Source of the DNA: Prorocentrum cordatum
Lineage: Eukaryota; Sar; Dinophyceae; Prorocentrales; Prorocentraceae
Direction of reading: 5' to 3'
Assembly: GCA_963575745.1 (NCBI GenBank)
Contig: CAUYUJ010017976.1
Span: 89,245-153,244 of the forward strand
DNA: 64,000 nt
Below the pieces are notes generated by a model that saw nothing but the letters and a program-made list of their open reading frames with translations, did not search any database and was not told the origin of the DNA. The position numbers were made by a program, and so were the translations under genes. This document shows positions 10,655-59,485 of this stretch, one piece after another. Each line of letters starts with the position of its first letter. Within the stretch, counting starts at the first letter, position 1.

Positions 10655-10885
10655 GGTCTGTATGGGGTCTTCTGTAGGGTTCCAGCAGGGACCGTACAGG
10701 CCCTGCAGGATCTCTCCAGGTTTTCTAGAGGGGTCCTATAGGGACCTCTATAGGGTTTCCATCGGGACCCTGTAGGGACCTTACAGGTTCTGCAGGATTC
10801 TATAGGGTTTCTTTAGTGATCCAATGGGGATCCTGTATGGGGTCTCTATAGGGACCTTGCAGGCCCTGCGTGATTCCCCATATCC
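10655..10885. repeat. Short copy of the 11-bp CTATAGGG array
   Basis: Degenerate repeats such as CCTATAGGGACC and CCCTGCAGG. It is the same family as the long array at 26740-27698, about 16 kb away. Confidence 0.85.
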
Positions 10886-26636: not shown

Positions 26637-26739
26637 CTCAGTCACACTTAAATCCAGATTCGTCCTCACCGAGTCCCACCACCAAGGGGGCGCCAGCAAG
26701 GAGATGCACATATGGGGATCCCCACGCAGTGAATAATCT

Positions 26740-27698
26740 GTTTTGGGTTTATTCAGGGATCCTTAGCGGATCCTGTAGGGATCCTATAGGGACCGCTCAG
26801 GCCCGGCAGGATCTCTATAAGGATCTGCTAAGGGGTCCTGTAGGGATCTTATAGGGGTCCTACGGGGATCTTATAGGGTCTGCATAGGGACCCTGAAGGG
26901 ATCCTAGCGGGATCCCGTCGGGAGCTTACAGGCCCTGCATCACCTATGGGGTCTCTATAGGGTCTCTGTAGGGGCCCTGCAGGGATCCTAGCGGGATCGT
27001 AGAGGGACTTGACAGGTCCTGCATGATCTCTGTAGGGTCTCCGTAGGGATCCTTTTAGGTTTTCTATAGGGTGTCTATAGGATTCCTAGAAAAGGGATCC
27101 GATAAGGATCCTGTAGGTCCTGCAGGGTATCCGTCGGGTTTCAAAAGAGATCCTGTAGGCCCTGCAGGGTTTCCATAGATCTTATGGGGATCCGACCTGC
27201 CCTGTAGGGTTTTCCATCGAGATCCTAAAGGGGTCCTATAGGGCCTGCAGGGTACCCATAGGGATTCTATAGGGACCTTATTGGCCCTGCAGGTTTTCCC
27301 TTGGGATCCCATTGGGACCTTGCAGGCCCTGCGGGATCTCTATAGGGTCTCTATGCGGACCCTATAGGGATCTCTGTAGGGTCTCTATAGGCTTCCAAAC
27401 GGGACCCTATCAGGATTTCTATAGGGTCCCTCAGGGATCCGACAAGGGATCTGATAGGAATCTCTAACGGGTCTCTATCGGGTTCCTAGAGGGCCCCCAT
27501 AGGGATCTCTATATGGTCTCGAACGGCTTCCTAAAGGGACCCAATCGGGATTTCTATCGGGTCTCTGTAGGGTTCCCGAAGGGACTCGGTAGGGATCTCT
27601 ATAGGGTCATTATAGGGTTCCTAAAGAGACCCTCTAGGGATCTCTTCAGGGTTTCTGTCGGGATCCTGTGGGGCCCTATAGGGATCCTGAAGGGACCC
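26740..27698. repeat. Degenerate 11-bp CTATAGGG array, left part
   Basis: Runs of units such as TCTCTATAGGG and CCCTATAGGGA follow each other every 11 bp, with GGATCC and CCTGCAGG variants. The array is interrupted at 27699 by the TIR element and continues after it at 37065-37190. Confidence 0.9.
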
Positions 27699-27700
27699 TA

Positions 27701-27745
27701 CCTTGGGACTCCAAGGTCGATCTATAGTGCGGGGTCGAACTATAA
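27701..27745 (+). repeat. Left terminal inverted repeat and subterminal repeats
   Basis: The 45-bp TIR begins with a self-complementary CCTTGG...CCAAGG. From 27717 an 18-bp unit of the form TCGATCTATAGTGCGG recurs at 27717, 27735, 27753 and 27770. The last two lie inside the TIR boundary, and an inverted copy (ATAGTTCGACCC) follows near 27798. Such repeats are usual transposase-binding sites (inference). Confidence 0.85.
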
Positions 27746-27928
27746 TGCGGGGTCATACTTTTCTGCGGGTCGATCTATAGTTCGGGCGCGCCGAAAATAG
27801 TTCGACCCGCCGGTTTGGGGCAAACGGGGCTTCAGCACCCATGCTCGCGCTCACCCCACTGGGAGGGGTCCAACATATACTTGAGCCGACAGCAATGAAT
27901 GACAACGATACACACAGAAGCGTTCTTT

Positions 27929-30141
27929 TCAATGCATGCGCACAATCGGCTGGCCGCAGAACTTAGAGATGCATGCCACTGAAAACACTCTCATGGACCT
28001 CCTTTGGCCCCTCCTTCGACCAAATGCAGCTACAGATCCACCAAAATCCTCATCCCTATAGTTCCAGTGCTTCGCTGGTTCACCGCCGCCCATGGACAGT
28101 TCTAAAAACATGTGCATTTTAGGCTTGACTTTAAAATGGGCAGGAAGCGCGTCTTGCAAAGCGGCCGTCTGCGTGGCAGACTTACTTGAATGCTCTCTAA
28201 GAGTGTCCACAGCAAATGGGTGATTGTCAGAGAGTGCCTCGTAACACCGAGATAAGCTTTTCATCCCTGCGTGAATGGACGATTCTACAGCTGCCCGCTC
28301 GTCGACGCCATTCCTCCTATCAAGGAAAGCCTCCGCCATCTCCAATGCCCATGGAACCATGTGCCTGAACATCCCCGCGCCGCACCTCATCTTAGCCGTC
28401 GTTGCTTTATTTCCTTTCACAACGCCCCGCGTCAGTCTCGATAGGCGGCTGGTCTTCTCACCTGGCGGCTGCCTGTCGTAGAACGCCATCAAATGACCAT
28501 GCAGTGTGGAGACGCGGCCTTTCTGGGTAGTTCCAGCCACCTTTTTGTGCGTTACAAGATACCATATCAAGCCCCCTATGAAGTCAGCCGCTACTCCAAG
28601 ATCAACAACGTGTAACCAATCTAGCTTCAGCAACTTTTCGTTCGCATACGGCACTTGGAAGAGAGGGCGCACCTGCTCGCCTGAAGCGATAATCTTCGCA
28701 AGGACTTCTGGCCATGTGCGTCGGTGCGTTCTCCGCGGCGCGTCTCTGCCAGTCTGCGATTTCACCTGCGGGGACCTCCTCCTCCTCCTCCTCCTCCTCC
28801 TCCACCCCTCCTCCTCCTCCTCCTCCACCCCCCCTGGAAGGGGCCGCAAAACGACGACGACGCACCCCCTCCCAGAGGGGATTTCCATCCTCCCCTGATG
28901 TGTTGCGCTCCCAGGGCCTCGTCCTTCTTGATGTTGCACAGGAAGCATACTTCGTCATCTTGCCAGCCAGGTAGCTTGAGCACCTCCTTCATCATCTTCC
29001 AGTCCCCTTTGATCTGGCAAAGCACTCTGCCAATTGGTATGGTAGCATCGGCCACTTGTCGGCGCTTCCTCCATGCGTCCTGCGCGCCGAAGGGAGAGCC
29101 GTCGCGCCGTGCCGTCGGCCAGCGCATCGCAGCCAAGTGAACAAAGCTCCACTGCACCACTGCAAAAACATCATCAAATGTGTTGGGGCCCACGTGCTCT
29201 TTGAGGAACGCTGTGATTGGGGCCCGCAGGTTTTTCCAGCGCCCCGCAGCCCCTGGCAACATGAGGCTGATGATCTCTGCGCTCATCGATCGGTCCCAGA
29301 AGCAAGGGGCCCCGTCCTGCCACGCGCCCAGGGCCACCAGGTCGTTGCGACCACTCTCCGCCCTTGCTCTTTGCACGTGGCGCAGAGACACGCCGTCGAG
29401 ACTCGACGTCTCCAGTAGCACGCTCCGCTCGCCAAAATGATGAAGTTGATGAAGTATTTCGTGAGGAAGCAGCATCGCTAAGTCCATCAGTTGTTCTGTT
29501 TCAGACTTGGGGCCCCAGCCCCTCACCTGGCAGTGATAGAGCGGAGGCCACCCTTTCCTGAAGAAATCCCGCCTGAACTTCCTGGCAGCGTTTTTCGTGC
29601 CCGACGTTGACTCCGTAGTCTGCAGGTCGGAGAGACCTGTCGCAGATGCAGAGACGCAGTCATTGATCAGCTGAGCGCCGCGCTGCCCGCTGACCACGTT
29701 GCTGCTTATCAGGTCCTGCACGTTCGCTCTCAGCCGCCTCTCCAGCGGCAAGCCCAACCTGTCATAACGCAACCGCCGTCTGGAAAACATCCCGCGGGGC
29801 CCGCGGGAGACGGGCGCGAGCGCGGCGGCCTTGAGCCAGTGGCTGCGAACATGCGCGGCTGAGGCAAGGAGCCCTTGCCCTTTCCCGCGCCCCTCCTCCG
29901 CGCCCTCCTTCAATCCCTTTCGTGCCCCTCCCCTCCTGCTAGTCCCTCCGTCAATGCAGTTACTGCCGATGATACCGAGCCCCCCTCCCCCCCGCCCCCC
30001 TCCCCCCATTCCCCCCTGCGATGAGGGGGGCTTCTTTACTGGCAAACCCAGAAACATGCGGCCCCTCACGAAGGGGCACCCCTGGCAGAGGAAGCGGCAA
30101 GTTCTCGTTTTCCCATGGGCGTCGGAAAGGCAGCGCTGCAT
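27929..30141 (-). CDS. Transposase-like protein of a dinoflagellate-wide family (probable DDE enzyme), two exons
   Basis: Exon 1 is about 30141-28918 and exon 2 is 28765-27929, giving 408 + 278 residues. The intron (28766-28917, GC-AG; a GA donor six bases upstream is also possible) keeps frame and holds a GGA tract and a CCCCT...AGGGG hairpin. Conserved wording: LLPHEILHQL; LDGVSLRHVQRA; WQDGAPCFWDRSMSAEI then LMLPG; QIKGDWKMMKEVL; a CFLCNIKK cysteine pair; after the intron KLDWLHVVDLGVAADFIGGL; and a C-terminal WNYRDEDFGGSVAAF. I recognise this as a high-copy family in dinoflagellate genomes. The order DG..P, GD, CxxC, D-x-x-H...LG, then an acidic motif resembles Tnp2/CACTA-type DDE transposases (inference). 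The N-terminal 90 residues include hairpin DNA and may be wrong. Confidence 0.75.
28766..28917 (-). other. Intron of the transposase-like gene with hairpin and GGA tract
   Basis: Needed because the two conserved halves lie in different frames. The acceptor CCCCGCAG/GTG fits the AG/G rule of dinoflagellate introns. The donor is GC (or GA at 28923), not GT. It contains hairpin 28866-28880 (loop CCCAG) and (GGA)n on the sense strand. Confidence 0.55.
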
Positions 30142-30225
30142 GCGTGTCGTCGGGCGAGGCAGAGCATCTCAAACCCTACTGCGTATATGCATGTAAATAC
30201 TGATATGTAGATGTAGGGCCGCAGC

Positions 30226-31500
30226 TCAATTGAGGAACTTCTTGAAGCGCTTGACCGAGAGCTGAATGCCCTCGAACATGTGCTCGTGTGTGCTGTAGGC
30301 GGCCTGGACCTCAGTCTTCAGCTTATCGTACATGTCCGTGTCCTTGCCGACAGAATCAGCGCCCTCAATTTTCGCAATCAGAACCTCCATCTCCGTCTCG
30401 TGCTGGTCCGCATTGTCCACGCACTTCTTGCACTCATCGGCCCAGTTCTGGAAGCTCTGACGGTCCTTCTGATCCTGATCCCCAGCCTTCGCGAGCAACT
30501 GATTCTTCGTGTGCTTCAGGACCTTCAGCTCCTTCTGATACTTGACCAGCGTTTGCCTTGGTAGAGATCATAAACAAGCAATGCGCCGACATGCTTTTCA
30601 ACGCAAACAACGCACGACAGAACGGATACGAACCAGTTTCTATCGCCATCCCCTCCAGGAGGGGCGGCGGGGGCGTGGCGGGGGAGAGGGCCCCCCTCTG
30701 GGAGGGGTCTGGCAGAGCACCAGAGATGGAAGGGCAGGGGGCGGCTGCCGAGGACGGCGCGCGATCTCGTCCTTCTTACTCACGATCTCTGGCCAGTGCG
30801 GATTCTCGATCTTCACCTCGCCGCCCCCACCCGACCCCGAAGCGCTGGACGACGGGAGCTCGGCCATCCTGATGCCTGCAGCTTCGAGTTGCTTCAGGTT
30901 CTTCAGGTTGGACGTCCCCTTGAAGGTGCGCGAGTCCTTCGTCGCCAGCTGGTCATCGTCCATGTTGCGCTCGACGAAGTACCACTCCTTCCACAGAGGC
31001 CTGTCCTTGGCATCTTCCTTGATGGGGAATTCTTCTTTGGTGCCATGCTCTTCGCTGTTCTCCTCCCACCATTCCTGCGCGAAGGCAGTGGCTTCCTGGA
31101 TGTCCGCAAAGTCTTTGATGGTGAGGTTCTTGAGGGCCAGTGCCTGCGATGCATCCCGGTACCCTCTCTTGGCAGAGCGCGTGTGCACCTCTTCATTCGT
31201 GCATCTCTCTTCGAAGGTGGCCAACCAGTCAAGTGTCTTGTCCTTGTCACTCGCGAAGGTCTGCAAGAACCGCTTCCGGTCGGCTGGGTCCTTCATCCCG
31301 TTCCACAGCGCCTGGGCTGCTCTGGCGGATTCTGCGGTGCTCGTAAGTTTCCCGCTGCCGTCCTTCTTCTCCGACTGGTACCTGAGCCACGCCCTCGTCT
31401 TGTCGGCCTCCTCCTTGTCGAGCCCGTGCCCCTTCGGGGCCGCCTTCGACTTCTTCGCCGCTGGTGCGCCATGGCCCTCGATCTTCTTCTTCGGTGCCAT
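30226..31500 (-). CDS. Lys-rich accessory protein of the transposon
   Basis: Starts at the ATG at 31500 (MAPKKKIEGHGAPAAKKSKA, a likely nuclear localisation signal) and is open through a Trp- and Lys-rich helical region (TRAWLRYQSEKKDGSGKL, WLATFEERC, AQEWWEENSEEHG, RPLWKEWYFVERNMDDDQ) to about 30790 (ENPHWPEIV). A second coding segment, about 30552-30226, has helical, charged sequence (VKYQKELKVLKHTKNQLL; QNWADECKKC) and ends RFKKFLN. An intron of about 0.2 kb with two hairpins (30650-30664, 30693-30707) must join them. The acceptor CTACCAAG/G is clear. The obvious GT donors do not keep frame, so its 5' border is unsettled. Function unknown; it may be a DNA-binding partner of the transposase. 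Confidence 0.6.
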
Positions 31501-31659
31501 GCTGCACAACGGTGTGAGGAGAGTGCCCAGCAGGAGCAGAGGAGGGACTACTCCTGGGGCGGGCATGGCTGCCGCGGAACTGACCCCTGAAATTTGGGAT
31601 ACAGCAGCAAACTCGAAATGCCCTGCGGCAGCCGAAACGCCTGCGAATGGCAAGTAGAT

Positions 31660-32290
31660 CGTCGGGGGCCTTCCCCGCGCACTTCAGTGGTGCGTGTGGG
31701 TGTGGTGTGGTGCTGTGGGTGTGGCGTGTGTGGTGGTGCATTTCAGTATCGTCGAGCCTTCCCCTCAGCCAGGGGTTCGTTTCTCTCCCCTCGAAGGGGC
31801 TCGGCACCCACGCGGTCGTCTCCTCCCCCTCGAAGAGAGGGGGTGCTACCTCATCAGCGGTGAGGCGGGGAGGGGGGGGGGTGGTGTGTCAGGGCCCCCC
31901 CCTCAGTAAGGGGTGCGCGCCCCCTCAAAAAGGGGCACCCCCCTCTCTGGATTGCTTTGCGCGGCAGGCAAGCACAGGGGCCCGAACGACTCACCCATGA
32001 TGCAATGCTACTGCTCCCCCCTGCTGCCCCTGCTCACACTGCCCCCCCTCATTAAAGGGGCTCACCCTCAGTAAAGGACGGTGGTGCCCCTCCGCAAGGG
32101 GCCCGTCAAAGATGTTTCAGGGGCCCCCCTCAATCAGGAACACCGCGCCCCCCAACCCCCCTAGGGGGCCCGTCAGATACGGCCCAGCCCCGCCCCCTCC
32201 CCCCCCACCCTCAGCCAGGGGCGTTTCGCCCCTCAGCGGGACTCGTCTGGCCCCCATGCAGCGAGGGGGGGTGCACTGCAAGCGACCTTT
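31660..32290. repeat. Intergenic hairpin cluster (CCCCT...AGGGG)
   Basis: Hairpins with identical stems and different loops at 31762-31776, 31788-31800, 31826-31842, 31899-31913, 31921-31935, 32045-32060 and 32087-32101, plus weaker ones near 32209. No gene is supported in this stretch. Confidence 0.8.
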
Positions 32291-32300
32291 ACGAGAGAGA

Positions 32301-32456
32301 TTCTCTTAAGAGAATTCTCTTAAGAGAATTCTCTTAAGAGAATTCTCTTAAGAGAATTGTTGGTTTTGCCTGAGACATCCACACAATTCTCTTAAGAGAA
32401 TTCTCTTAAGAGAATTCTCTTAAGAGAATTCTCTTAAGAGAATTCTCCAAAGAGAA
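32301..32456. repeat. Tandem perfect 14-bp palindromes in two blocks
   Basis: TTCTCTTAAGAGAA, which is its own reverse complement, occurs four times head to tail at 32301-32356. After a 30-bp spacer (32357-32386, itself with weakly complementary ends TTGTTGG/CCACACAA) it occurs four times again at 32387-32442, with one degenerate copy at 32443-32456. The whole block is one large inverted repeat. It lies between two genes of the transposon. Confidence 0.97.
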
Positions 32457-32645
32457 TTTCCCCTTAAGATAATCGGTTTCGTGATCGCCCGTCCCCTCTG
32501 CCAGGGGCAGCCGCGCGCGCCCCTGCAATGAAGGGGCCGCAGTCAAGCCGAGTTCCCTTAACCCGTCCCGCCTCTATTCTGGCGCGAGAGGCCGCGCTCT
32601 TGTATATGGATGTCGGCGCCGTCGCCGACGCGGTCGCCCCGCGGC

Positions 32646-33779
32646 TCAGGGCGCGCCGTCCTGGGGCGGATGGGGGTGCAGGAGGAAGATTGACAAGGAG
32701 GAAGAGCATAAGCAAGAGGGATATGGACAAGGAGGAGGGCGGGCGACAAGCAGGAGCAGGAGGAAGAGTGACCAGGAGGATGGAGAAGCGGTCCTAGCCC
32801 CTCTTAGGATTCGCCTTCGGGCGCTTGCCGTTGCCCTTGTCCTTCTCCGTGTCCTAGTCCTCGTCTTTGTCGCCCCTCGCTGCTTTCGAGGGTCTGCCTC
32901 CCGCCTGGTCCGCGCGGGGCCTTTTTTTGCCTTGGGGTCCTTCTTTTTGTTTTCTGCGTTCTGCGTGGCTTCGTCTGCTTTCTCCCCCGCGTCCGCCCTC
33001 GCTGCGTCCGCCGTTGCTGCGCCCGTCTCGGGCTGCTCTGGTGTTGCCGCTTCTGGCGCTGCCGTCTCTGCCGCCTGCCGCTCCTCTGCCTCTCGTTTCT
33101 GTTTATGCTCCGCTTCCTCCTTGGCCCGCGCTGCGTCCTCCGCATCCTTGGCAGCCTTGGCAGCCGCTTCCGCCCTCCGTGCGGCCGCTTCGGCAGCCAG
33201 CAGCCTCGTCCTCGCCTGCGCTTCGGCGGCCTCTGCTGCCCTCTGCAGCTCCAGGCGGGCCTCTGCCTCCCGCCTCAGCGCGGCGTCCCTCTGCTGTTGT
33301 TGCGCCCGCCTCAGGCGGATGATCTCCTGCTCTGCCCTGCGCTCCTGCTCCTGCCGAAGGCGCTCTTTGTGCTTTTCGACGCGCCTCTGTGCCGCCTCCG
33401 CGCGATTCAATGCCCGCAAGAGCCTCCGATGCTGCCTTGCGTGCTCTTCCTCTAGCCTTATCAGCTCATCAGGCTCCTCTGACTCCTCTTCCTCCTCCAT
33501 GCCCTCTTCCTCCTCGCCCTCATCCTCCTCTTCTTCCTCCCCCTCTCGGGCTCCGTCGTCGGAGGCGTCAACCTGCATTGCTTCGGCAGGTGCTGCCGCT
33601 GCTGCTGCTGCTGCGGGCGGGTCTGCTGCCGCTGGCGGCGGTGCTCCTGCGAGCGGTGCTGCTGCGGGGGGTCCAGCCGCTGCTGCTGCTAACAGTGCTG
33701 CGGGTGGCGGGCCTCTCGGTGGCGTTGGCCCCCCCCCTGCGGGGGCGGCAGCTGCGCTGCTGTTTCGCTCTGCTGCTCC
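32646..33779 (-). CDS. Acidic coiled-coil protein of the transposon
   Basis: The frame is open from a likely splice acceptor (CCCCGACAG/GAG at 33779). The first in-frame ATG is at 33578 (MQVDASDD). Composition in order: Ala/Pro-rich segment, strongly acidic stretch (EEEEEDEGEEEE), then about 150 residues of heptad-like Arg/Glu/Ala/Gln sequence (RLEEEHARQHRRLLRALNRA, KHKERLRQEQERRAEQEIIR, RLELQRAAEAAEAQARTRLL), clearly a long coiled coil, then a Lys/Arg tail. The true C-terminus is uncertain. A different frame at 32800-32870 has a more natural tail (DTEKDKGNGKRPKANPKRG then stop) but contains a TAG. The gene may be the 3' part of the zinc-type gene upstream. Function unknown. Confidence 0.5.
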   Translation of the reverse strand, partial: GAAERNSSAAAAPAGGGPTPPRGPPPAALLAAAAAGPPAAAPLAGAPPPAAADPPAAAAAAAAPAEAMQVDASDDGAREGEEEEEDEGEEEEGMEEEEESEEPDELIRLEEEHARQHRRLLRALNRAEAAQRRVEKHKERLRQEQERRAEQEIIRLRRAQQQQRDAALRREAEARLELQRAAEAAEAQARTRLLAAEAAARRAEAAAKAAKDAEDAARAKEEAEHKQKREAEERQAAETAAPEAATPEQPETGAATADAARADAGEKADEATQNAENKKKDPKAKKGPARTRREADPRKQRGATKTRTRTRRRTRATASARRRILRGARTASPSSWSLFLLLLLVARPPPCPYPSCLCSSSLSIFLLHPHPPQDGAP

Positions 33780-34039
33780 TGTCGGGGAACGAAGTAAGCT
33801 CACCCCCATGAGAGGGGCCTCTCCTTGCGTTTATTCGGTCCCCCCTCGTTTATCCCCTCGAACAGGGGCCCTCCCTTCTTGGCAGCGCGGGGCAGGGGGG
33901 GGGGGGCGGTCCTGCAGCAGGCCGACCAAGACCGCCTCCCTGGTATCGCACCTCCGCTGCCAGTGCCTGGCAGGCGCAGAAAACTGACCAGGATAAACAT
34001 TGAGAAAATCAAAACGTCAAACCGACATAACTTCACTCC

Positions 34040-34617
34040 TCAATGTTTGAGGGTTCCCCCCTCCCCACCACTGGCACCCTTGCGTTGCCTGGCTCTGGCG
34101 ACCTCGCTCTTGCCGCCCCTCCACCTCCTCCCGTTGCGGTCGCGGTCGCCGTGCTCGTGGAACCACTGGGTCGCGTGGTGTTCCTGGCACGTCTTGCCAA
34201 CGCACACCGAGAAGAAGGTGTGTTTGCCGCACTGCCAACACTTCTTGCAGTTCATCTTGCGAAGCCACAAGCGGTGGGACGAGCGGGTGTACCGCTTTTT
34301 GGGTCCTGGAAGTCCAGCATGAACTCCTCCTCCGCCTCGCTGTCGTCGTCGTCGACCTCAAAGACAGGCGCGTGCCCGTCCTGCAGGGTGTCTCTGTAAA
34401 TCAATCCCTTCAGGAAGGGTCACGGGTCTCTGTGAATGAATCCCCTCAGGAAGGGGAGGTTCTATCGATAAATCCCCTCTGGCAGGGGTCTCTGTAAACG
34501 AATCCCCCCAGGAAGGGGCGCCTTGACCACTTGTACCCCCAGCTCCTCGTGAGGCCGCTTGCCGCCGCCACCGCCTTCTGGAGGCAGCCCGCCGCCGCAG
34601 CCGCCCGACATCATCAT
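34040..34617 (-). CDS. Small Cys/His-rich zinc-type protein of the transposon, two exons
   Basis: Exon 1, 34617-34522 (32 codons), starts MMMSGGCGGGLPPEGGGGGK and ends LGVQVVK. Exon 2 starts at 34380 with DGHAPVFEVDDDDSEAEEEF. The GC-AG intron 34381-34521 is phase 0, and AG/G holds at both borders. Exon 2 lacks one base: in the A-run on the sense strand (T5 at 34296-34300 on plus) one more A would join LDFQDPK to KRYTRSSHRLWLRK. The C-terminal part has MNCKKCWQCGKHTFF, CVGKTC and HHATQWFHEHG, a plausible C-x-x-C / H zinc-binding module, followed by a basic tail. It could be a DNA- or RNA-binding partner (inference). Confidence 0.55.
34381..34521 (-). other. Intron made of four hairpin units
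   Basis: A 141-bp GC-AG intron. On the plus strand, units of about 30-40 bp with TCTCTGTAAATCAATCCC-type sequence and a CCCCT...AGGGG-type hairpin follow one another four times (34394-34518), with different loops. Almost nothing else is in it. Confidence 0.65.
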
Positions 34618-34619
34618 GC

Positions 34620-35372
34620 CGGAAGCCTGGGGTCCAGAACGGTTGCGGCCGAAAGTTTATAGTCAGACTCAAAAGGCTAACATCTGGGGGCCTCGTGGGA
34701 GGCCCTTCGGGGGGGTGAATGTAATGGAATTTCATAGGAATTCGTCCAATTTTAGACCCCCCTTTTTTTGCTAAAAAAGGTGGGTCTAAAACTCGGCTGC
34801 TGGGTTGATTTTTTATCGCCCAGATGGCCAAACAAGTGGCCGTCACTCTTACTTTTCTCCTCATCCTGCCCCAACTCCCCCCTTGCATTCTGCTTCCGCG
34901 CGGCCTGGGGCGCCGAGAGGCACAGGATGAGCGCCCGCATGGCCGCGAGCTCGGGGCGGGGGGCTGGCCCCCAAGCGCGCTGGGTGTCAGCTCTGTCGAA
35001 CGGTTGCGGATTAAGAACATGAAAGCAGATGGGAGAGGGATGGAACGAGGAGGAAACGCAATGCCATACACATAATGAGTAAGCAGACTGCCGCACCTTT
35101 GATCCCCTCCCAGAGGGGTCCCCTCTCGGAGGGGGCCGTTGCCCTGTCTTATCGCGAGTGTGCTGAAGCCCCTCTTAAGGGGTTCCCCTCTTAAGGGGTT
35201 CCATCACTCGCCAATCCATCGCGCGGTCCCCTCACGGAGGGGCGCCCCTGCGATGAGGGGGTGTCGTCTAGCACTGGAGAGGGCGCTCTGCCAACGGGTA
35301 TGGCGATGGCAATGGCGATGAAGACGGTAAGGATGATGATGGGGATGGATGCGACGATGAGGATGGATGCGA
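34620..35372. other. Intergenic: hairpins and GATG repeat
   Basis: 34620-35100 holds no supported gene. 35104-35118, 35120-35134, 35169-35182, 35185-35198, 35228-35242 and 35245-35260 are CCCCT...AGGGG hairpins, two of them in direct tandem with the same loop (CTTA). 35297-35370 is a GATG-type microsatellite just after the stop of the next gene. Confidence 0.7.
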
Positions 35373-36780
35373 TTAGTCGCCCGAGCGCTGTGCCACGAAG
35401 CGCTCAGCCTCCGCCTTAGCCGCTTCCTTGGTGTCAGCCACGGTGCCGTCGACCAAGGCCTTCTTCAGCTCTGCGCCGATCTCCCTGAGCGTGTCCTCGT
35501 CCAAGGTGTCCTTGTACTTCTTCCCGCCGAAACTCACAAACTGGTTCTTCTCACCGTGCGTCCGCTTCAACCCGATAGCGTGGCCCCTCTTGTAGTACAT
35601 CGCGCTGTGCCCGCGGTCGGCGTGGCCAGCGGGGGGCCCGGCGCCGACCGAGGGCTCATCTGCAGCATCCACGGGCTCATCGGGTTCCAGCTGCTCTTCC
35701 TCCTCCCCCTCATCGTCCTGGTCCGTCTCCGTGTTCGCGGCGGCTGCACTGGGCTTTCTCATTGCAGGCTTCTTTGCCACTACATGTCCTGCTGGCTTCC
35801 CTTTTTTGCGCGCTTTCGCCTTCGCCTGCGCGGCTGCCGCTCTTGCTGCCAGGAGGGCGTTGGGCAGCTCCGTCTTCTCCGTCCTGCCGTCGGGAAACGC
35901 GGCATCCAAGAAACCATCGCCTCCTTTCGTCAGTGTTCCCCGCTCCTCCCTGTCTGCGAACTTCATCGCCATGTACATCGGCTCGGAGTTGAAATCGAAA
36001 TGCGTGGCCAGGGGATCCTGGGGCGGGTCTCTCACTTGCCCCTCCCGAAGGGGCTCCCCTCCCGAAGGGGTTCGGTTACGCCGTGAAAAATCAAAACTGC
36101 TCCCCTCCCCCTCCCACCCTGCCCGCCCCCTCCGATCCTCCTTCGGGGCCGCGGCGGGCGGGTCGGCGAGCTCGACGTCCTCCTGCGACGAGAACGCCAT
36201 CATCGGGCTGGTGGAAACCTTCTGTTTCTTCCCTGCCGGCCTCGGAGGCGGGCTGATGCCGAAGGCGTTCTTGATGACGTTGCGCCTGCTGCCCCCATCT
36301 GCGCTGGGCGGCGCGGCGGCCGTGGAAGATTTCGGAGGGTTCATCTCTATGTCGGAGCTGCTGTCGGCGCGTTTTTTGCTCTCTCCTGTGCTTGGGCTTG
36401 CCCTGCCAGGCTGCAGCCCCATTGCCTCCCCAAGCATTTTTGCGTGCGCCTCCAGCTTCCCCCCCCGTCTTGGCGATGTAGAACTTGTTGCAAACGTGGC
36501 TGAAAGCGTTGGCCACCTCCTGGCAGAAACGCCTACACTCTTCCTGGTGCATGTTCGGCTTCTGCTTCAACACGACATCCTGGAGGTTCTTCCATTTGAC
36601 GCGTGTGGTGAGCTGCGCAAGCGGCGAGAGAAACGGCATGTTGTTCTTCATGAAGTCATCTATGCCCCCTTGCAGTTGGCATTTTTCGATGAGACCAATG
36701 TGCTGTTTCACGAGCGGCTTCAACTGTTCCTCAATCACAGAAGAAGCCCGTATCTTCACCTCCGTCTTGCCCTTGACCAT
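35373..36780 (-). CDS. Accessory protein of the transposon with C-terminal SFGG motif, two exons
   Basis: The ATG at 36780 (MVKGKTEVKIRASSVIEEQL) opens a helical N-terminal region (about residues 1-115; KPNMHQEECRRFCQEVANAF). An extra base in the C8 run at 36459-36466 shifts the frame. With seven it reads on as KTGGKLEAHAKMLGEAMGLQ, and exon 1 (36780-36138) is then exactly 214 codons. Exon 2 (36017-35373) is 214 codons plus TAA. The 120-bp intron holds two hairpins. The C-terminal half has a Lys/Ala-rich segment, an acidic run and KNQFVSFGGKKYKDTLDEDT, then a helix LREIGAELKKALVDG. I have seen similar SFGG-plus-helix tails in dinoflagellate repeat-family proteins (memory, not checked). Function unknown. 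Confidence 0.6.
36018..36137 (-). other. 120-bp intron with two hairpins, possible GA-AG borders
   Basis: The sense sequence GAAGGAG/GATCGG ... CGCCCCAG/GATCCC has the same AGGATC on both sides, like a target duplication. Hairpins 36039-36053 and 36056-36070 share one loop (CCCGA). Because 120 is a multiple of three and has no stop, the frame also reads through unspliced. Confidence 0.5.
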
Positions 36781-37017
36781 TGCCCACCCCCCGCGCAGTG
36801 CGCGCAAGCAAGAGTAGCGCTATGTGCCCTCGAGCCTTCGCAGCTGCGGGATGTTGTAACATGCGCGCAATGTGATGCAGCCGATACCCCTCACTCAGGG
36901 GACGCATTGCCCCCTCACTCAGGGGATCCTTAACAATGCGCGAGCGAAGAAAAGTACGACTTGGCCAAAAATCATGGGTTGGACTATAGTGCGACCCAAG
37001 GAAAGTGCCAGGTCGAG
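36781..37017. other. 5' flank of the gene cluster inside the transposon
   Basis: Contains hairpins 36887-36901 and 36911-36925 (identical loop CACTC) separated by 9 bp, upstream of the first gene. Promoter function is possible. No TATA-like element is evident. Confidence 0.5.
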
Positions 37018-37062
37018 TTATAGTTCGACCCCGCACTATAGATCGACCTTGGAGTCTCAAGG
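37018..37062 (-). repeat. Right terminal inverted repeat
   Basis: Inverted copy of 27701-27745 with one mismatch (position 6, A for G). It contains two 18-bp subterminal units. A third, diverged one (GACTATAGTGCGACCC) lies near 36991. Confidence 0.85.
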
Positions 37063-37064
37063 TA

Positions 37065-37375
37065 TAGGGATCCCATAGGCCCTGCAGGGTTTCCGTGGGG
37101 GCCGTATGGGCATCCTATAGTCCTTCCAGGGTCTCCATAGGGATCCTATTGGACCCCGTTCCGGAGTGTCGCCGGAGCAAATATCGGAATCCGCTTAGGG
37201 TTTCGTCGGGGGAACGTGAGGAGAGTATTTTTTGTTATTGTTTTTTTTCTTTGGGTTGCTGGGTTGCTGGGTTGCTGGGGGGGGGGGGTGCTAGCCACGC
37301 GTCCTTGTGATCCGGTTCGAGTATTAGGGACAGGCGGTTACAGCGAGCGCACGGGACGCGTCCTTCATGGCCGCC
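37065..37375. repeat. 11-bp array, right part, then unassigned DNA
   Basis: 37065-37190 continues the CTATAGGG/CCTGCAGGG array after the transposon. 37190-37375 has a GGGTTGCT short repeat (37250-37285) but no gene. Confidence 0.8.
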
Positions 37376-52421: not shown

Positions 52422-52649
52422 AATTCTTTACGCTTCGCGTATCCCCACCAGCCCATCTCACAACAGCAACTCTTGCGAAGCATGCCGACAGTCGTGTTTT
52501 GCAGGCGTGTGTCCGCTTGGCCCCGCAAATCTCCCCTGTTACTCCTTCCTCCCGCCTCCTTGTACATCCTCCTTGTGGGGGAAGCGGGAGAAGGACAAGG
52601 CGGAGGAGGAGGGAGAGGAAGCGCTCCTCGTGGTTAGAGTCGTTTGGGC

Positions 52650-53440
52650 TGTCTCGTCCTGGTGTGAGTCGTTCGGGCCCTTCCTCCTGGTGTGAGTCGT
52701 TGGGGCTCTTCTTGGTGTGAGTCGTTCGGGCTCTTCGTCCTGGTGTGAGTCGTTCGGGCTTCTCGTGGTGTGAGTTGTTCGGGCCCCTCGTCCTGGTGTG
52801 AGTCGTTCGGGCCCCTCCTCCTGGTGTGACTCGTTCGGGCTCCTCGTGGTGTGAGTCGTTCGGGGCCCTCGTCGTGGTGTGAGTCGTTCGGGCTCCTCGT
52901 GGTGTGAGTAGTCGTTCGGGCGCCTCGTCCTGGTGTGAGTCGTTCGGGCCCCTCCTGGTGGTGTGAGTCGTTCGGGCTCTTCGTGGTGTGAGTCGTTCGG
53001 GCCCCTCGTCCTGGTGTGAGTCGTTCGGGCTCCTCGTGGGGCCTGTTGGGGGCCTCTTGGAGCCTCTCGTGGTGTGAGTCGTTGGGGCCCCTCGTCCTGG
53101 GGTGAGTCGTTCGGGCTCCTCCTCCTGGTGTGAGTCGTTCGGGCTCCTTGTGGTGTGAGTCGTTCGGGGTCTCTCGTCCTGGTGTGAGTCGTTCGGGCTC
53201 CTCGTGGGGCTTCTTGGGGGCCTCTTGGAGCCTCTTGGGGCCTCTTGGGGGCCTCTTGAAGGCCTCTTGGGGGCCTCTTGGGGGCCTCTTGGAGCCTCTT
53301 GGGGCCTCTTGGTGGCCTCTTGGGAGCCTCTTGGGGACCTCTTGGGGCCTCTTGGGGGCCTCTTGGGGGCCTCTTGGAGGCCTCTTGGGAGCCTCCTGGG
53401 AGCCTCTTGGAGCCATCTTGGGGCCTCTTGCGACCTCCTC
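52650..53440. repeat. Left-arm arrays: GTGTGAGTCGTTCGG and CTTGGGGGCCT
   Basis: 52650-53210: units of about 25-29 bp (GTGTGAGTCGTTCGGGCTCCTCGT). 53212-53430: 12-bp CTTGGGGGCCT units. The inverted counterparts are 58880-59275 and 58620-58875. Confidence 0.95.
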
Positions 53441-53838
53441 AGAAGCGCAAATGAGCGCTGGCCCCTGAGTAGGACAAAATGAGGCTAAAACCTGCGTAAA
53501 ATCAATGATTTTGCTATGAAGGAAGAGGAGCGCGGCCCCCTCAGAAGGCCAAAATGGCGCCAAAACCGTAGTAAAATCAATGTTTTCTGCTTCAAAGACG
53601 GTCTGAGGCGCCAACCCCCCCCCCCCCTCGGGGCCAGAATCCTCGTGAGGGTCGTCGTTTTTTGGCCCTCCCAGGAGTCAAAAAAGACCCCCCTGACGAC
53701 GCCCCGGACTCCCTCTCCAGGCCCAGGGGGAGGGGGTAGGGGGAGGGGTAAACCCCTCCCCGAAGGGGAAGAAGGGGGGTTGAGGACAGAGCGGGCTCTC
53801 TAAACCACTCACGCCCAAAGGGCTGGTGGGATTCTGGG

Positions 53839-54217
53839 AAGCCTGGGATCAGCTCAGGGAAGGCGGGCTTTCGTGGTGGTTCCAGGTTTCCCAGACTTCG
53901 CAGGCTTTCGGTGCCCAGCCCCTTATCAGCCGAAAAGGTGCAGTCGGACCGAAATCTAAGATCGAGGTCGGTTCGGGGAGGGTGCCCTCATGTTTTCCAT
54001 GCTTGTTGGACGCTCTTGTGCATCCTGGGGAGGGTACCCTTGGATGTTCGGTGCGTTCTGGCCGACGGAGGGTCCCATGTTCTTGAAGGATGGTCTTCTG
54101 GCCTAAGTCCAACTGTATGTAACCAAACAGTCCATGTGCGGAAACGTGCCCGAAGTTGTGATAGTCAACGCAGTGTGACCGAAGCTACGACCAGATTTTG
54201 ACGTTGTTGTTGCTGTT

Positions 54218-54249
<32 letters not shown>

Positions 54250-54303
54250 TGCTGTTGTTGTTGTTGTTGTTGTTGTTGGTATCGTTAATGTTGTTGTTGT
54301 TGC

Positions 54304-54343
<40 letters not shown>

Positions 54344-55349
54344 GAACATTATTAATTCTAAAGAATAATTATTGTTGGGCCCCCTGGTGCGCGCCCCCCC
54401 CGCCGCGCCTAGGCCGCAGCCACGTTTTCATCATTTTCGTGAGGAAGCCTCAGGTAATTCGAGGTGATCAAGATCCGGTTGTTTTGTTGTAATCCGTTTT
54501 CCCTTGCAAAAAACACTATAAAATGACATTTCTTGTTCTAATATAATCAAATTTCAAGAATCCCTTGCAAAAAATAAGGTAAAGTGGACATTCGCGCGCG
54601 CAAGACGAAATCCTTCCAAAAGCTTAGTGTTCGGAGCGATTTTAACATAAAAACATCAAAAAACCAATGGTTTTTCAACAAAAAAATGTCAAAATCTCAT
54701 CCCGCGCGCTCTTGCGGATTCGTAGGAAACCCAACACTTTTTAAACATTTCTGTCAAACGGGCTTTTGCGAGCAACTTTTTCGAACTTCTGCGACAACGG
54801 TTGCGCACCTGCCAGGGCCATCATCCCTGTCAAATAATACCATGCGGGACACATTCGTTTTTTCTTCGCGCGCGCACGCCGAAATCTCCAAAAACCATTG
54901 GGTTCTTAAGAATTTTAGCACCGCGCATCATAAAATCACACGAATCGTCTGCTTAAGTGTATTCCCATCATCCCAGGAACTTGACCCAAAAATGTGACCA
55001 ACTCCGCTCTCTCTGTCTCTCTCTCTGTCTGCTCTCTGTCTCTCTCTCTGTCTCTCTGTATTATGTATTGTATGGCACAATTGCACCATGCTGGGCACAT
55101 GCGCGCCCCGAATAAGTGACCAAGTTCTGTGGGTGTGTACCCCACGCCAGTGTAGTAGCCACGGTCGTCCGCACGCCACGAAGTGAAGTGTCCCAACGTC
55201 ATAGGGCGGGAAGCTGGGTTTGGGTGGTCGCGAAGAGTCGTTTGGATATTTGGTAGAGCTTGTAATGCCCCCCCACGAAGTGGGGGTATTGCCTGGTGTC
55301 GTATGAAAACCCTGGCACTGGGGAGAACACCACGCGTTCGGGTAAAATG

Positions 55350-55382
<33 letters not shown>

Positions 55383-56095
55383 ATCGTTGTCGTTGTTGCT
55401 GCTGCTGCTGCTGCTGTTTCGAGCCTACAGATGAAGCCACACACGCGGGCACGTTCCGAAAAGTTCGGGCGCCAGTTCCGGTCACGCTAGGGCAGTTCTT
55501 CGGGCACAGTTTTGGTCCCCGCCCGACAAGTCAGGCCGCTCAGGAAAAGGGGGAGTGCCTTTGGGAAGATCCCTGGGGGGCAGTTCGGGCGCACCCCCTA
55601 TCGAAGACAGGACGCCCCCCCCTTCGTATATCCCCGCGTTTGGCCTCAAATGTGTCGTCCGTCCCGAAACCCGACGAAGTCGGGGATTGGGGTCGCCATG
55701 CTTGCTGGAAACAGGTCCTGAGGGAACGGGTCCTAAGTTTTTCGCCGTTTTTGGTTCCGCGGGGCCTCCACCAGCCCCGGGACCCTCGACGAACGACTCG
55801 GGATGAAGAACTGACCGTCTGGGGTCCAGGGCCCGTTTCCCTCAGCACCTGGTACCTTCATTCCAAGGTCCCCAGAGCTCGGGGCCCCAGCCGGATGCAC
55901 GTCGGCGATCGTTGTTGGATCGACGCCCCTTGAGATCCAGGAGTCGCAATTTCTTCACGCCTGGCAATTTCACGCTCTACATTTCTGGCCCCAGGACCCC
56001 CGCGGATCGGTCGGGTTCGAAATATGCCGCAGAATGGGGTCTTGGGCTCTGGTCGTCGTTGTTGTTGTAGCTGCTGCTGCTGCTGCTGCTGCTGG

Positions 56096-56147
<52 letters not shown>

Positions 56148-56175
56148 AATGTTGTTGTTGCTGCCGTTGTCGTCG

Positions 56176-56241
<66 letters not shown>

Positions 56242-56262
56242 GTTGCTGCTGCTGCTATTGTT

Positions 56263-56297
<35 letters not shown>

Positions 56298-58215
56298 TGT
56301 TGTTGTTGCTGTTGTTGCTGAGATGCTGTATTTTCCTTGACGCCGGATCTCGGGGAAATCGCACCGATATGGCTAAACACCCTATCTCCTCGTGTTCGCC
56401 TATTTTGGCCGCCCGGGAGGCCCTCGTCGCCATGGCTGGATTCGCCTCGCAGTCCTCGTCGGAACGCAGCCGTCGAATTCTAAAACATTGTTTTTTGAAT
56501 CAAAAAAAGCAGGGGTTTGGTTTTTGAATGTAAAAACTGGTTTGTGAATTCAAAAGCCAGGGGAGTAGCTGTGTCTGTGGCTTTTGGTTTTCCCAGGCGC
56601 TCGTCCGCTGGTCCCGAGCGCTTGGGGTCCCAGCTGTGTGACCTTCGGCGATCGTGGTTGGATCGACGTGGGCGATCGTCCCAGACCTCAGTGTCGTTTG
56701 ACCGACCCCCATCCCCATCCCCATCCCCATCCCCATCCCCATCCCCCTCGAGACCCCCACCAAATTGCCTCCCCCCAGTTGGGGATACACCCCTCGAAAC
56801 CCGAAGGCAACGGCCTACACCCCCATCCAGGGGGGTAAATCGGCCAGTGGGGCCCAGGCCACGCCGCTGGGGATGGGGGTCGGATAAACGATGCTCAAAA
56901 CCCTTCCCGCGTCGCGAAAAAAATCACGGCGCACAGTTTTTGGTGTGATCTCCGACCTCTGGGGCCCCCGCTGGGCCCGAGGGCCGTCAGAGAACGATGC
57001 AGGATGGAACGCCAGTCCCAGGGAACGGGTCGAGACCTCCAGGGGTCCATGTTGTGAGCAAATCACGACGTCGGGGGTCTGGAGCTCGGGGGTCCCACCT
57101 GGATCAACGTCGGTGGTCGTTGTTGGATCGACGTCGGCGATGGTTGTTCGACCCATGCGCCCGTTTGTTTCTTTCGATCGCGGCGCCTTTCCTCAGTTTG
57201 GCCTCCCCGGGGGGCGTTGTTTTCTTTGGCCCCGAGGCCGTCAAGAGTGGATGCGGCGCGGAAGCCTGATCTCGGGCAAAGGGGTCATGGAATTTCTTGG
57301 GGCCACGGATTGAAGCGTTGCGCAGTCGGATGTTTAGGTACGTCTCGGGATGTATGTAAAAAGAAGGCCCGTCAGCGTATTACTCCTTCGCCTTTGTCCG
57401 CAAGCCTGGTGTTCATTCAACCGTGACACACCGATGGATCCCACACGGCGGCGTGTCATTCATGTTGGCAGGGACCGACCACAACGCTGTTTAGCTTGAT
57501 TTTGGCCAGTGTTGATTTTCGTTTCGTTGTTTGTTGCTTCTTGGTTCTTCGTTCGTTTTGGTTTTAAATGCTTGGTTTCGTTGTTTGGTTATTTTGGCGC
57601 TGGTCTCGTTCTGAACGTTATTTTAGACTTCTGGTTTCGTTTCGTTTCGTGTTTCACGCAATCTAGTTTTAAACAACGTTGTGGTCGGTCCTTGGATCTT
57701 GTGCTTGCTCCCCGAACGCATACTGCTGCCACACGCTGTGCGCCAGCGGAGGCAGGTCACGGGTGGCAGAAACCTTGGCTCCAGAGGTTGGGCAGAGTAT
57801 ATCCATGCCGCCACTCCCAGACCGCCAGGCCGCCATGCTGCGCTCTGAAAGGAGTCCTGCAGTTCGACAAACGAAAGGGTGCGGGAACTCTGGACCCCCG
57901 TGCCTTGCCGGCACGGCGGGGACCCTGGCTCAGTCAATGCCAGTGGAAGTGACTTTCGACGCGAATTCCACCCCCGGGCGGGCTTTCACAGGGGGAAAGG
58001 GGGGTCAGCAGCGTTGTCAGTATCTGCTGTCGTACAGGAGCGACCCCCACTGCCCTGATGCCAATTTTCCATGACCGGCCCGCAGCAATTCTTAATATCA
58101 GAACCTACCAGACCACCCCAACCCAACCCGAAGGCCCCTATGTGCCCTGCGTTCCCAGTGGTGGGGAGGCGTCGGGGAACATCGAAAAAACACATGTGGA
58201 GCCCGTACCCCCCCA
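53839..58215. other. Centre of the inverted repeat: no gene, several repeats
   Basis: (GTT)n/(TTGCTG)n at 54200-54345, 55350-55410 and 56055-56325. An AT-richer island at 54400-54990 contains two related CGCGCGCAAGACGAAATCC-like blocks (about 54588 and 54868). CTCTCTGT repeat at 55003-55065. A dispersed block with GATCGTTGTTGGATCGACG at about 55905, 56650 and 57110. A CCCCAT array at 56707-56745. 57300-58070 is complex sequence with nothing recognised. Confidence 0.6.
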
Positions 58216-59485
58216 ACCCGAAATCCCACCAGCCCTTTGGGCGTGAGTGGTTTAGGGAGCTCTCTCTGTCCTCAACCCCCCTTCTTCCCCTTCGGGGAGG
58301 GGTTTACCCCTCCCCCTACCCCCTCCCCCTGGACCTGGAGAGGGAGTTCCGCGGGTCGTCAGGGGGGTCTTTTTCGACGTCTGGGAGGGCCAAAAAACGA
58401 CGACCCTCACGAGGATTCTGGCCCCGAGGGGGGGGGGGAGTTTGGTGCCTCAGCTCGTCTTTGAAGCAAAAATCATTGATTTTACTAGGGTTTTGGGCCC
58501 ATTTTGGGCTTCTGAGGGGGCAGCGCTCATCGTCCTTCATAGCAAAATCATTGATTTTACGAAGGTTTTGGGCTCATTTTGTCCTTCTCAGGGGGCAGCG
58601 CTCATTTGCGCTTCTGAGGAGGTCGCAAGAGGCCCCAAGATGGCCCCAAGAGGCCCCCAGGAGGCTCCCAAGAGGCCCCCAAGAGGCCCCCAAGAGGCCC
58701 CCAAGAGGCCCCCAAGAGGCCCCCAAGAGGCCCCCAAGAGGCCCCCAAGAGGCCCCCAAGAGGCCCCAAGACCCCCAAGAGGCCCCCAAGAGGCCCCCAA
58801 GAGGCCCCCAAGAGGCCCCCAAGAGGCCCCCAAGAGGCCCCAAGAGGCTCCAAGAGGCCCCCAAGAGGCCCCACGAGGAGCCCGAACGACTCACACCAGG
58901 ACGAGGGGCCCGAACGACTCACACCACGAAGAGCCCGAACGACTCACACCACAAGGAGGGGCCCGAACGACTCACACCAGGACGAGGCGCCCGAACGACT
59001 CACACCACGAGGAGCCCGAACGACTCACACCACGACGCGGGCCCCGAACGACTCACACCACGAGGAGCCGGAACGAGTCACACCAGGAGGAGGGGCCCGA
59101 ACGACTCACACCAGGACGAGGGGCCCGAACAACTCACACCACGAGAAGCCCGAACGACTCACACCAGGACGAAGAGCCCGAACGACTCACACCACGAAGA
59201 GCCCGAACGACTCACACCAGGAAGAAGGGCCCGAACGACTCACACCAGGACGAGAAACCCCAAACGACTCAAACCACGAGGAGCGCTTTCTCTCCCTCCT
59301 CCTCCGCCTCGTCCTTCTCCCGCTCCCCCCACAAGGAGGATGTACAAGGAGGCGGGAGGAAGGAGGAACAGGGGAGATATGCGGGGCCAAGCGGACACAC
59401 GCCTGAAAAACACGACTGTCGGCATGCTTCGCAAGAGTTGCTGCTGTGAGATGGGCTGGTGGGGATACGCGAAGCGTAAAGAATT

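Follow-up and report, generated by a model that had tools for sequence, protein, structure and literature searches.

RAG1, which cleaves antibody genes, and the Transib transposons, which duplicate 5 bp of target DNA, have been described in animals. In En/Spm, arrays of subterminal repeats serve as protein-binding sites, and the TnpA protein works together with TnpD. The present analysis concerns positions 27701-37062 of a stretch of 64,000 nucleotides from Prorocentrum cordatum (assembly GCA_963575745.1, contig CAUYUJ010017976.1, positions 89,245 to 153,244 of the forward strand; G000:C17127:89245-153244 in the searched assembly), hereafter called the window, which has a G+C content of 59.1%. 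The unit at these positions is virtually certain to be a DNA transposon and is read here as a member of a multigene transposon family with a RAG1-type transposase and co-travelling genes, a reading to which a probability of roughly 0.87 is given. Among the closest described systems are members of the clade of EnSpm, Mirage, Chapaev and Transib (CMCT), which the available part of PMC12730594 characterizes by a DDE triad on a RAG1-type RNase H-like fold, the motifs C(2)C and H(3-4)H, 5'-CA..TG-3' termini (in most cases) and a target duplication of 2-5 bp.

The earlier note on this DNA had described 45-bp inverted ends with one mismatch, and its coordinates proved exact, as 11 other two-ended copies end at the same bases. 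With the flanking TA included, the terminal repeats form a 47-base match (97.9%, E ~1e-16); the 16 outermost bases (CCTTGRGACTCCAAGG) are a near-palindrome, and no further copy of the terminal repeat was found within the 64-kb window. The window's own assembly (4.128 Gb, 21,875 contigs) was searched with a 35-base end core, which yielded 230 exact matches (116 on one strand, 114 on the other), whereas the same core read backwards yielded none; a chance origin of the ends is thereby excluded. Halving the number of end cores puts the family at roughly 115 members. The high copy number named in the earlier note holds for this genome. The inverted pairs for which that note had proposed to search, and whose complete absence it would have taken as a refutation, were also found: among the first 100 of the 230 listed end cores, 37 convergent pairs (74 ends) were present, 33 of which span 9.0-10.0 kb (median 9348, shortest 6184). 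Short non-autonomous derivatives with exact ends were not found among these 37 listed pairs, all of which measure at least 6.2 kb.

A first set of copies was obtained from 19 fetched stretches (matches 2-20 of the genome search). In 11 of them both ends were clean and lay at the boundaries of the window copy, in L025 the right end was rearranged, and seven had one end inside the stretch; a 20th region was a 92-base fragment of the same locus. Together with the window copy, this gives 12 two-ended copies, all with the termini CCTTG..CAAGG. The identity of the 11 others to the window copy was 97.2-98.2% over aligned bases, and the pairwise difference among the 12 was on average 2.2%, with a minimum of 0.55% between two copies at different sites. 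All five gene regions were present in 10 of the 12 (window included), in line with the proposal of a large multigene transposon whose other gene regions travel along. Regarding the two remaining copies, L027 has lost parts of genes 1 and 2, and L029 a segment that runs from the last gene 5 exon into gene 3. The presence of a region does not amount to an intact gene, as single exons in several copies carry stops or frame changes. The copies show that the element has spread as a whole, its ends being defined and its insertion sites carrying a duplication of 2 bp.

The dinucleotide flanking the unit was identical on both sides in 11 of the 12 two-ended copies of the first set (exception L026). 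In a second set, consisting of 20 pairs from the end-core list minus L061/62 and L069/70, which were without the exact terminal motif, the dinucleotides matched at 16 of 18 pairs (exceptions L059/60 and L079/80). Of the 30 sites in the two sets that have both end motifs, 27 thus carry a 2-bp duplication (P ~1e-29 at a chance of 1/16 each); L025 and the seven one-ended loci were excluded, and insertions with common flanks were counted once. The duplicated dinucleotides were TA, CA and TG (four sites each), AA (three), TC, GA, GG and CT (two each), and GC, AC, CC and GT (one each). Insertion thus duplicates 2 bp of arbitrary sequence. The TA seen on both flanks stands for the window site; as a specific target it was rejected, since 12 different dinucleotides are duplicated and TA accounts for just four of the 27 matching sites.

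Several copies are inserted within tandem repeats, which permitted an internal stand-in for an empty allele: the flanks were joined after 0-12 bases had been removed from the right flank, or 1-3 from the left one, and fitted to the surrounding repeats. Dropping one 2-bp duplicate gave the best fit at five sites, clearly at L033 (32/36 vs 27) and L039 (35 vs 28) and modestly at the window site (30 vs 28), L023 (26 vs 24) and L027 (35 vs 34). A tie was obtained at L031, and L024, L028, L029, L032 and L038 were near-tied or uninformative. In an earlier version of this test, applied to the window only, the removal of 13 bases, equal to 2 bases and an 11-bp subunit, scored 36/44, slightly above the 34/44 for 2 bases.

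Gene 1 is very probably the transposase of the element, as had been proposed for its protein family in the earlier note. Both of its exons are open in 9 of the 12 two-ended copies, and the stretch of its intron remains open in L023 and L031. D164, D267 and E528 are invariant in six relatives, as are H507 and, between the second D and the last E, C287xxC290, the C(2)C motif that reads CFLC in the window. Gene 1 has no Pfam match, and an alignment of the transposase compared with Pfam and with PDB sequences yielded nothing credible. A structure model of a relative (33% identical) matched RAG1 in Foldseek (2.1e-5, the next unrelated match being 0.21) and, in VIA-align, RAG1 and also Transib. EnSpm, Mirage and Chapaev chains were not listed in the fold searches, an absence to which no weight is given, and no relatives were confirmed in viral contigs and prokaryote genomes. 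On this predicted structure, it is strongly supported that gene 1 encodes a DDE transposase whose RNase H fold is that of RAG1 and Transib, and conservation and modelled fold both point to a DDE triad on a fold of that type; the match falls short of biochemical proof because the mean pLDDT of the model is 64.

Several observations weigh against the overall reading. Besides its low pLDDT, the model behind the fold match was built on a relative that is only 33% identical to the query, the whole-length TM-scores were 0.30-0.38, and VIA-align warns that a middling Z may reflect a common arrangement. The second H of H(3-4)H was seen only in P0007, the other five of the six relatives and the window having E. 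Among the first 100 ends on the list, 26 have no counterpart, possible causes being broken copies, contig ends and mismatches in the other end, and the duplication is absent at 3 of the 30 sites. Left flanks are common to L022/L023, to L025/L026, to L030/L032 and to L033/L034/L035, so that some copies are later duplications or redundant contigs. Between copies, the ratio of nonsynonymous to synonymous polymorphism (pN/pS) is near 1 (0.23-1.80 by segment, computed on 10 copies with L027 and L029 left out). Finally, movement itself was not observed.

Regarding the accessory genes, frames are open in most two-ended copies for genes 2, 4 and 5, as for gene 1. The order GC2 < GC1 < GC3 by codon position was found in 8 of 11 tested segments (exceptions G3, G4a and G4c). 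Relatives of gene 2 are P0012, which is 58% identical across the first exon and invariant over long stretches, and a near copy, P0011. The gene 5 relative P0013 is 94% identical over half its length and reads through the site at which the window copy has one G more than all 11 other copies; window gene 4 is without a base that is present in 9 of the 10 other copies holding the stretch. In the window copy, the reading frames of genes 4 and 5 are accordingly broken. Pfam scans of the segments gave weak matches only, all below the cut-off, and the structure model of gene 2 (mean pLDDT 49.6) was not used. Purifying selection between copies, considered as a possible proof of function, was not found; the pN/pS values given above were not clearly different from those of wrong-frame controls. 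Values near 1 are expected for copies drifting after insertion, and they do not establish a need for the accessory genes. For an accessory gene, selection over longer times is hinted at solely by the conservation seen between gene 2 and P0012. Since they are kept together in nearly all sampled copies, genes 2, 4 and 5 (perhaps also 3) more likely serve the element than represent random cargo.

The earlier note had counted five minus-strand genes, and this count stands for genes 1, 2, 4 and 5; gene 3 is doubtful, so that "five genes" becomes four plus one possible. That the third frame is not a gene at all, leaving a four-gene element, is a serious possibility, if somewhat short of an even one: the frame of the window is broken in all 10 other copies holding the region, and its GC by codon position (0.78, 0.59, 0.65) is unlike that of most other segments, whereas a frame of 319-334 amino acids with a different end persists across the region in L027, L028 and L033. 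A different doubt concerns the source of the activity. The unit could be mobilised in trans by another transposase, with all genes, including gene 1, as captured passengers; end cutting by gene 1 is inferred, and passengers too would give pN/pS near 1. The predicted RAG1-type fold, the conserved D, D and E, and the two open exons in most copies speak for gene 1 instead, as do the lengths of the 37 listed pairs, with no short non-autonomous derivatives among them, and mobilisation in trans is accordingly improbable.

Two further readings concern the unit as a whole. Several co-oriented genes between inverted ends would also suit an integrated virus or polinton-like element, but the Pfam scans showed no polymerase, capsid or integrase above the cut-off in the segments scanned (matches were weak, and the folds of genes 2-5 are unresolved), neither the end core nor the transposase was matched in the collection of viral contigs, and the 2-bp duplication together with the putative RAG1-type transposase argues for a transposon, making a viral origin very unlikely. 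Least probable of all is an ordinary array of co-oriented genes that has inverted repeats by chance and was spread through segmental duplication. Duplication does add copies, as the loci with common flanks beyond the ends indicate; this reading is nevertheless refuted by the flanks, which differ outside sharp common boundaries and carry differing 2-bp duplications. The element has two marks of cut-and-paste transposons with terminal inverted repeats, namely paired inverted ends at many loci and a duplication of fixed length.

Compared with the CMCT clade, the element shares the DDE triad and fold (as predicted), the C(2)C motif and the length of the duplication; it is not filed there because H(3-4)H, for its second H, and the CA..TG termini are absent. 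It would work like members of the EnSpm/Mirage/Chapaev/Transib group, without assignment as a member. With RAG1 and Transib it shares the predicted fold, the order D, D, E and a CxxC shortly after the second D; it differs from both in having no Pfam or PDB sequence match, four or so accessory genes and ends other than CA..TG, and from Transib in duplicating 2 bp. EnSpm/CACTA elements, with their TnpA/TnpD organisation, are likewise large and multigene and have short duplications and subterminal repeats, but end in CAC..GTG, and no Pfam match to a transposase was found in the present element. Its accessory genes adjoin the transposase as RAG2 adjoins RAG1, according to the accessible text of PMC4411706. 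The available part of PMC12730594 gives a duplication of 3 bp for fungal EnSpm, and describes the fungal CMCT lineages Plavaka and ESTA as having divergent RAG1/EnSpm-like transposases and possibly an extra gene (TET/JBP), of which the Pfam scans found no match in the element. From the same part of that source, PlavakaA shares the 2-bp duplication, but the termini are TGT..ACA in PlavakaA and CATCA..TGATG in PlavakaB, and ESTA is TA-specific, unlike the element. The Kyakuja, Dileera and Zisupton (KDZ) elements are also large eukaryotic transposons with extra genes, but duplicate 8 bp (Zisupton) or 7 bp (Kyakuja) in that account (PMC12730594).

Each of the four inferred introns of the element carries two CCCCT..AGGGG hairpins, like the introner-bearing introns of Prorocentrum cordatum in the portion of PMC10666404 available, which describes introners as non-autonomous. 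The hairpins look like introner marks, and of the 31 CCCCTn2-10AGGGG hairpins found across the window, 28 fall within the element; they do not resemble the element ends, and nothing shows that the element moves introners.

In the mechanism proposed, the gene 1 protein would bind both ends, cut the unit out and join it by strand transfer to a target with a 2-bp stagger. The subterminal repeats (~18 bp; at the left end four alike in orientation and a fifth reversed, at the right end three) score 19, 18, 14, 19 and 14 of 19 on the left and 19, 15 and 15 of 19 on the right. Within the window, the consensus at a threshold of at least 15/19 bases is confined to both element ends, while at least 12/19 gives background level. 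By analogy with En/Spm, these repeats may bind the transposase or an accessory protein that helps to pair the ends, for which the Cys/His-rich product of gene 4 or that of gene 2, whose start is basic, are candidates. The chances that at least one other gene is needed for movement are about even. Table 1 gives the coordinates of the features.

Table 1. Features of the transposon and its flanks in the window
Feature	Position	Strand	Remarks
Whole transposon	27701..37062 (9362 bp)	.	Both boundaries common to 11 other two-ended copies
Left terminal inverted repeat	27701..27745	+	Outermost 16 bases CCTTGGGACTCCAAGG, nearly palindromic
Right terminal inverted repeat	37018..37062	-	One mismatch to left repeat
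Left copy of 2-bp target duplication	27699..27700	.	TA at window site
Right copy of 2-bp target duplication	37063..37064	.	TA at window site
Left subterminal repeats, GGTCGAWCTATAGTKCGGG type	27715..27807	+	Starts 27715, 27733, 27751, 27768 in same orientation; 27789 reversed
Right subterminal repeats	36977..37048	-	Positions 37030, 37011/37012, 36977/36978
Gene 1, first exon	28918..29790	-	D (WQDGAP), D (KGDWK), CxxC (CFLC); splice point inferred from relatives
Gene 1, inferred intron	28766..28917	-	Two CCCCT..AGGGG hairpins (28831, 28866); boundaries approximate
Gene 1, second exon	27929..28765	-	DWLHVVD, KPKMH, E (YRDED)
Gene 2, first exon (MAPKKK...)	30784..31500	-	58% identical to P0012
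Gene 2, inferred intron	30556..30783	-	Two hairpins (30650, 30693); boundaries approximate
Gene 2, last exon	30226..30555	-	Frames across copies
Gene 3, acidic, Ala/Glu/Arg-rich frame	32829..33809	-	Doubtful as gene
Gene 4, first exon	34522..34617	-	Frames across copies
Gene 4, inferred intron	34390..34521	-	Two hairpins (34442, 34474); boundaries approximate
Gene 4, last exon, Cys/His-rich	34040..34389	-	One base short in window copy near 34300
Gene 5, first exon (MVKGKTEVK...)	36135..36780	-	One extra G in window copy between 36455 and 36469
Gene 5, inferred intron	36036..36134	-	Two hairpins (36039, 36056); boundaries approximate
Gene 5, last exon	35373..36035	-	Frames across copies

Inside the element, an array of ~11.6 copies of a 14-bp near-palindrome (AGAGAATTCTCTTA) occupies window positions 32294-32458, and L031 and L032 carry ~300-337 bp extra at 32206 compared with the other 10 aligned copies. 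On both sides (26700-27698 and 37065-37160), the element is surrounded by arrayed GGATCCTATAGG-like repeats, whose subunits measure 11 bp and whose periods are 42-45 bp, and a comparable array lies at 10658-10863. On contig G000:C13477, element ends near 118790, 132815 and 146846 (L035, L034 and L033) are spaced by ~14 kb with identical left flanks; this triplet is a tandem duplication of an element-holding segment after insertion, and both ends are visible at L033 only. A second large inverted unit at 52422-59485 has arms (52422-53838 and 58217-59485) of ~1.3-1.4 kb that are ~90% alike and rich in short tandem repeats; its outer ends are both AATTCTTTACGCTTCGCGTATCC, and no matching flank duplication was seen.

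Among the papers listed by searches of the open literature, none describes, by its title and the opening of its abstract, such a unit or a dinoflagellate transposase of RAG1 type; an earlier account in subscription journals or Repbase Reports is possible. The reading would suggest what a protein family that is abundant in this genome and goes unrecognised by Pfam is likely to do, would place the architecture of a RAG1-type transposase in a dinoflagellate, far from animals, and would add an independent instance in which a RAG1-like enzyme is accompanied by partner genes. Tentatively, and with the odds against it, one may envisage that transposons with a RAG1 fold form a superfamily of their own, which would explain several high-copy dinoflagellate protein families of unknown function, with a fixed machine of four or five proteins whose accessory members, likened to RAG2 in its necessity for RAG1, allow action on histone-poor, permanently condensed chromosomes. 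Because two copies at different sites differ by just 0.55%, recent movement of the element is suggested, and its ends and genes are therefore a candidate tool for DNA delivery in algae that are hard to manipulate genetically. Genes that are carried by transposons but missed by standard transposon libraries may also be included in the gene counts of such genomes.

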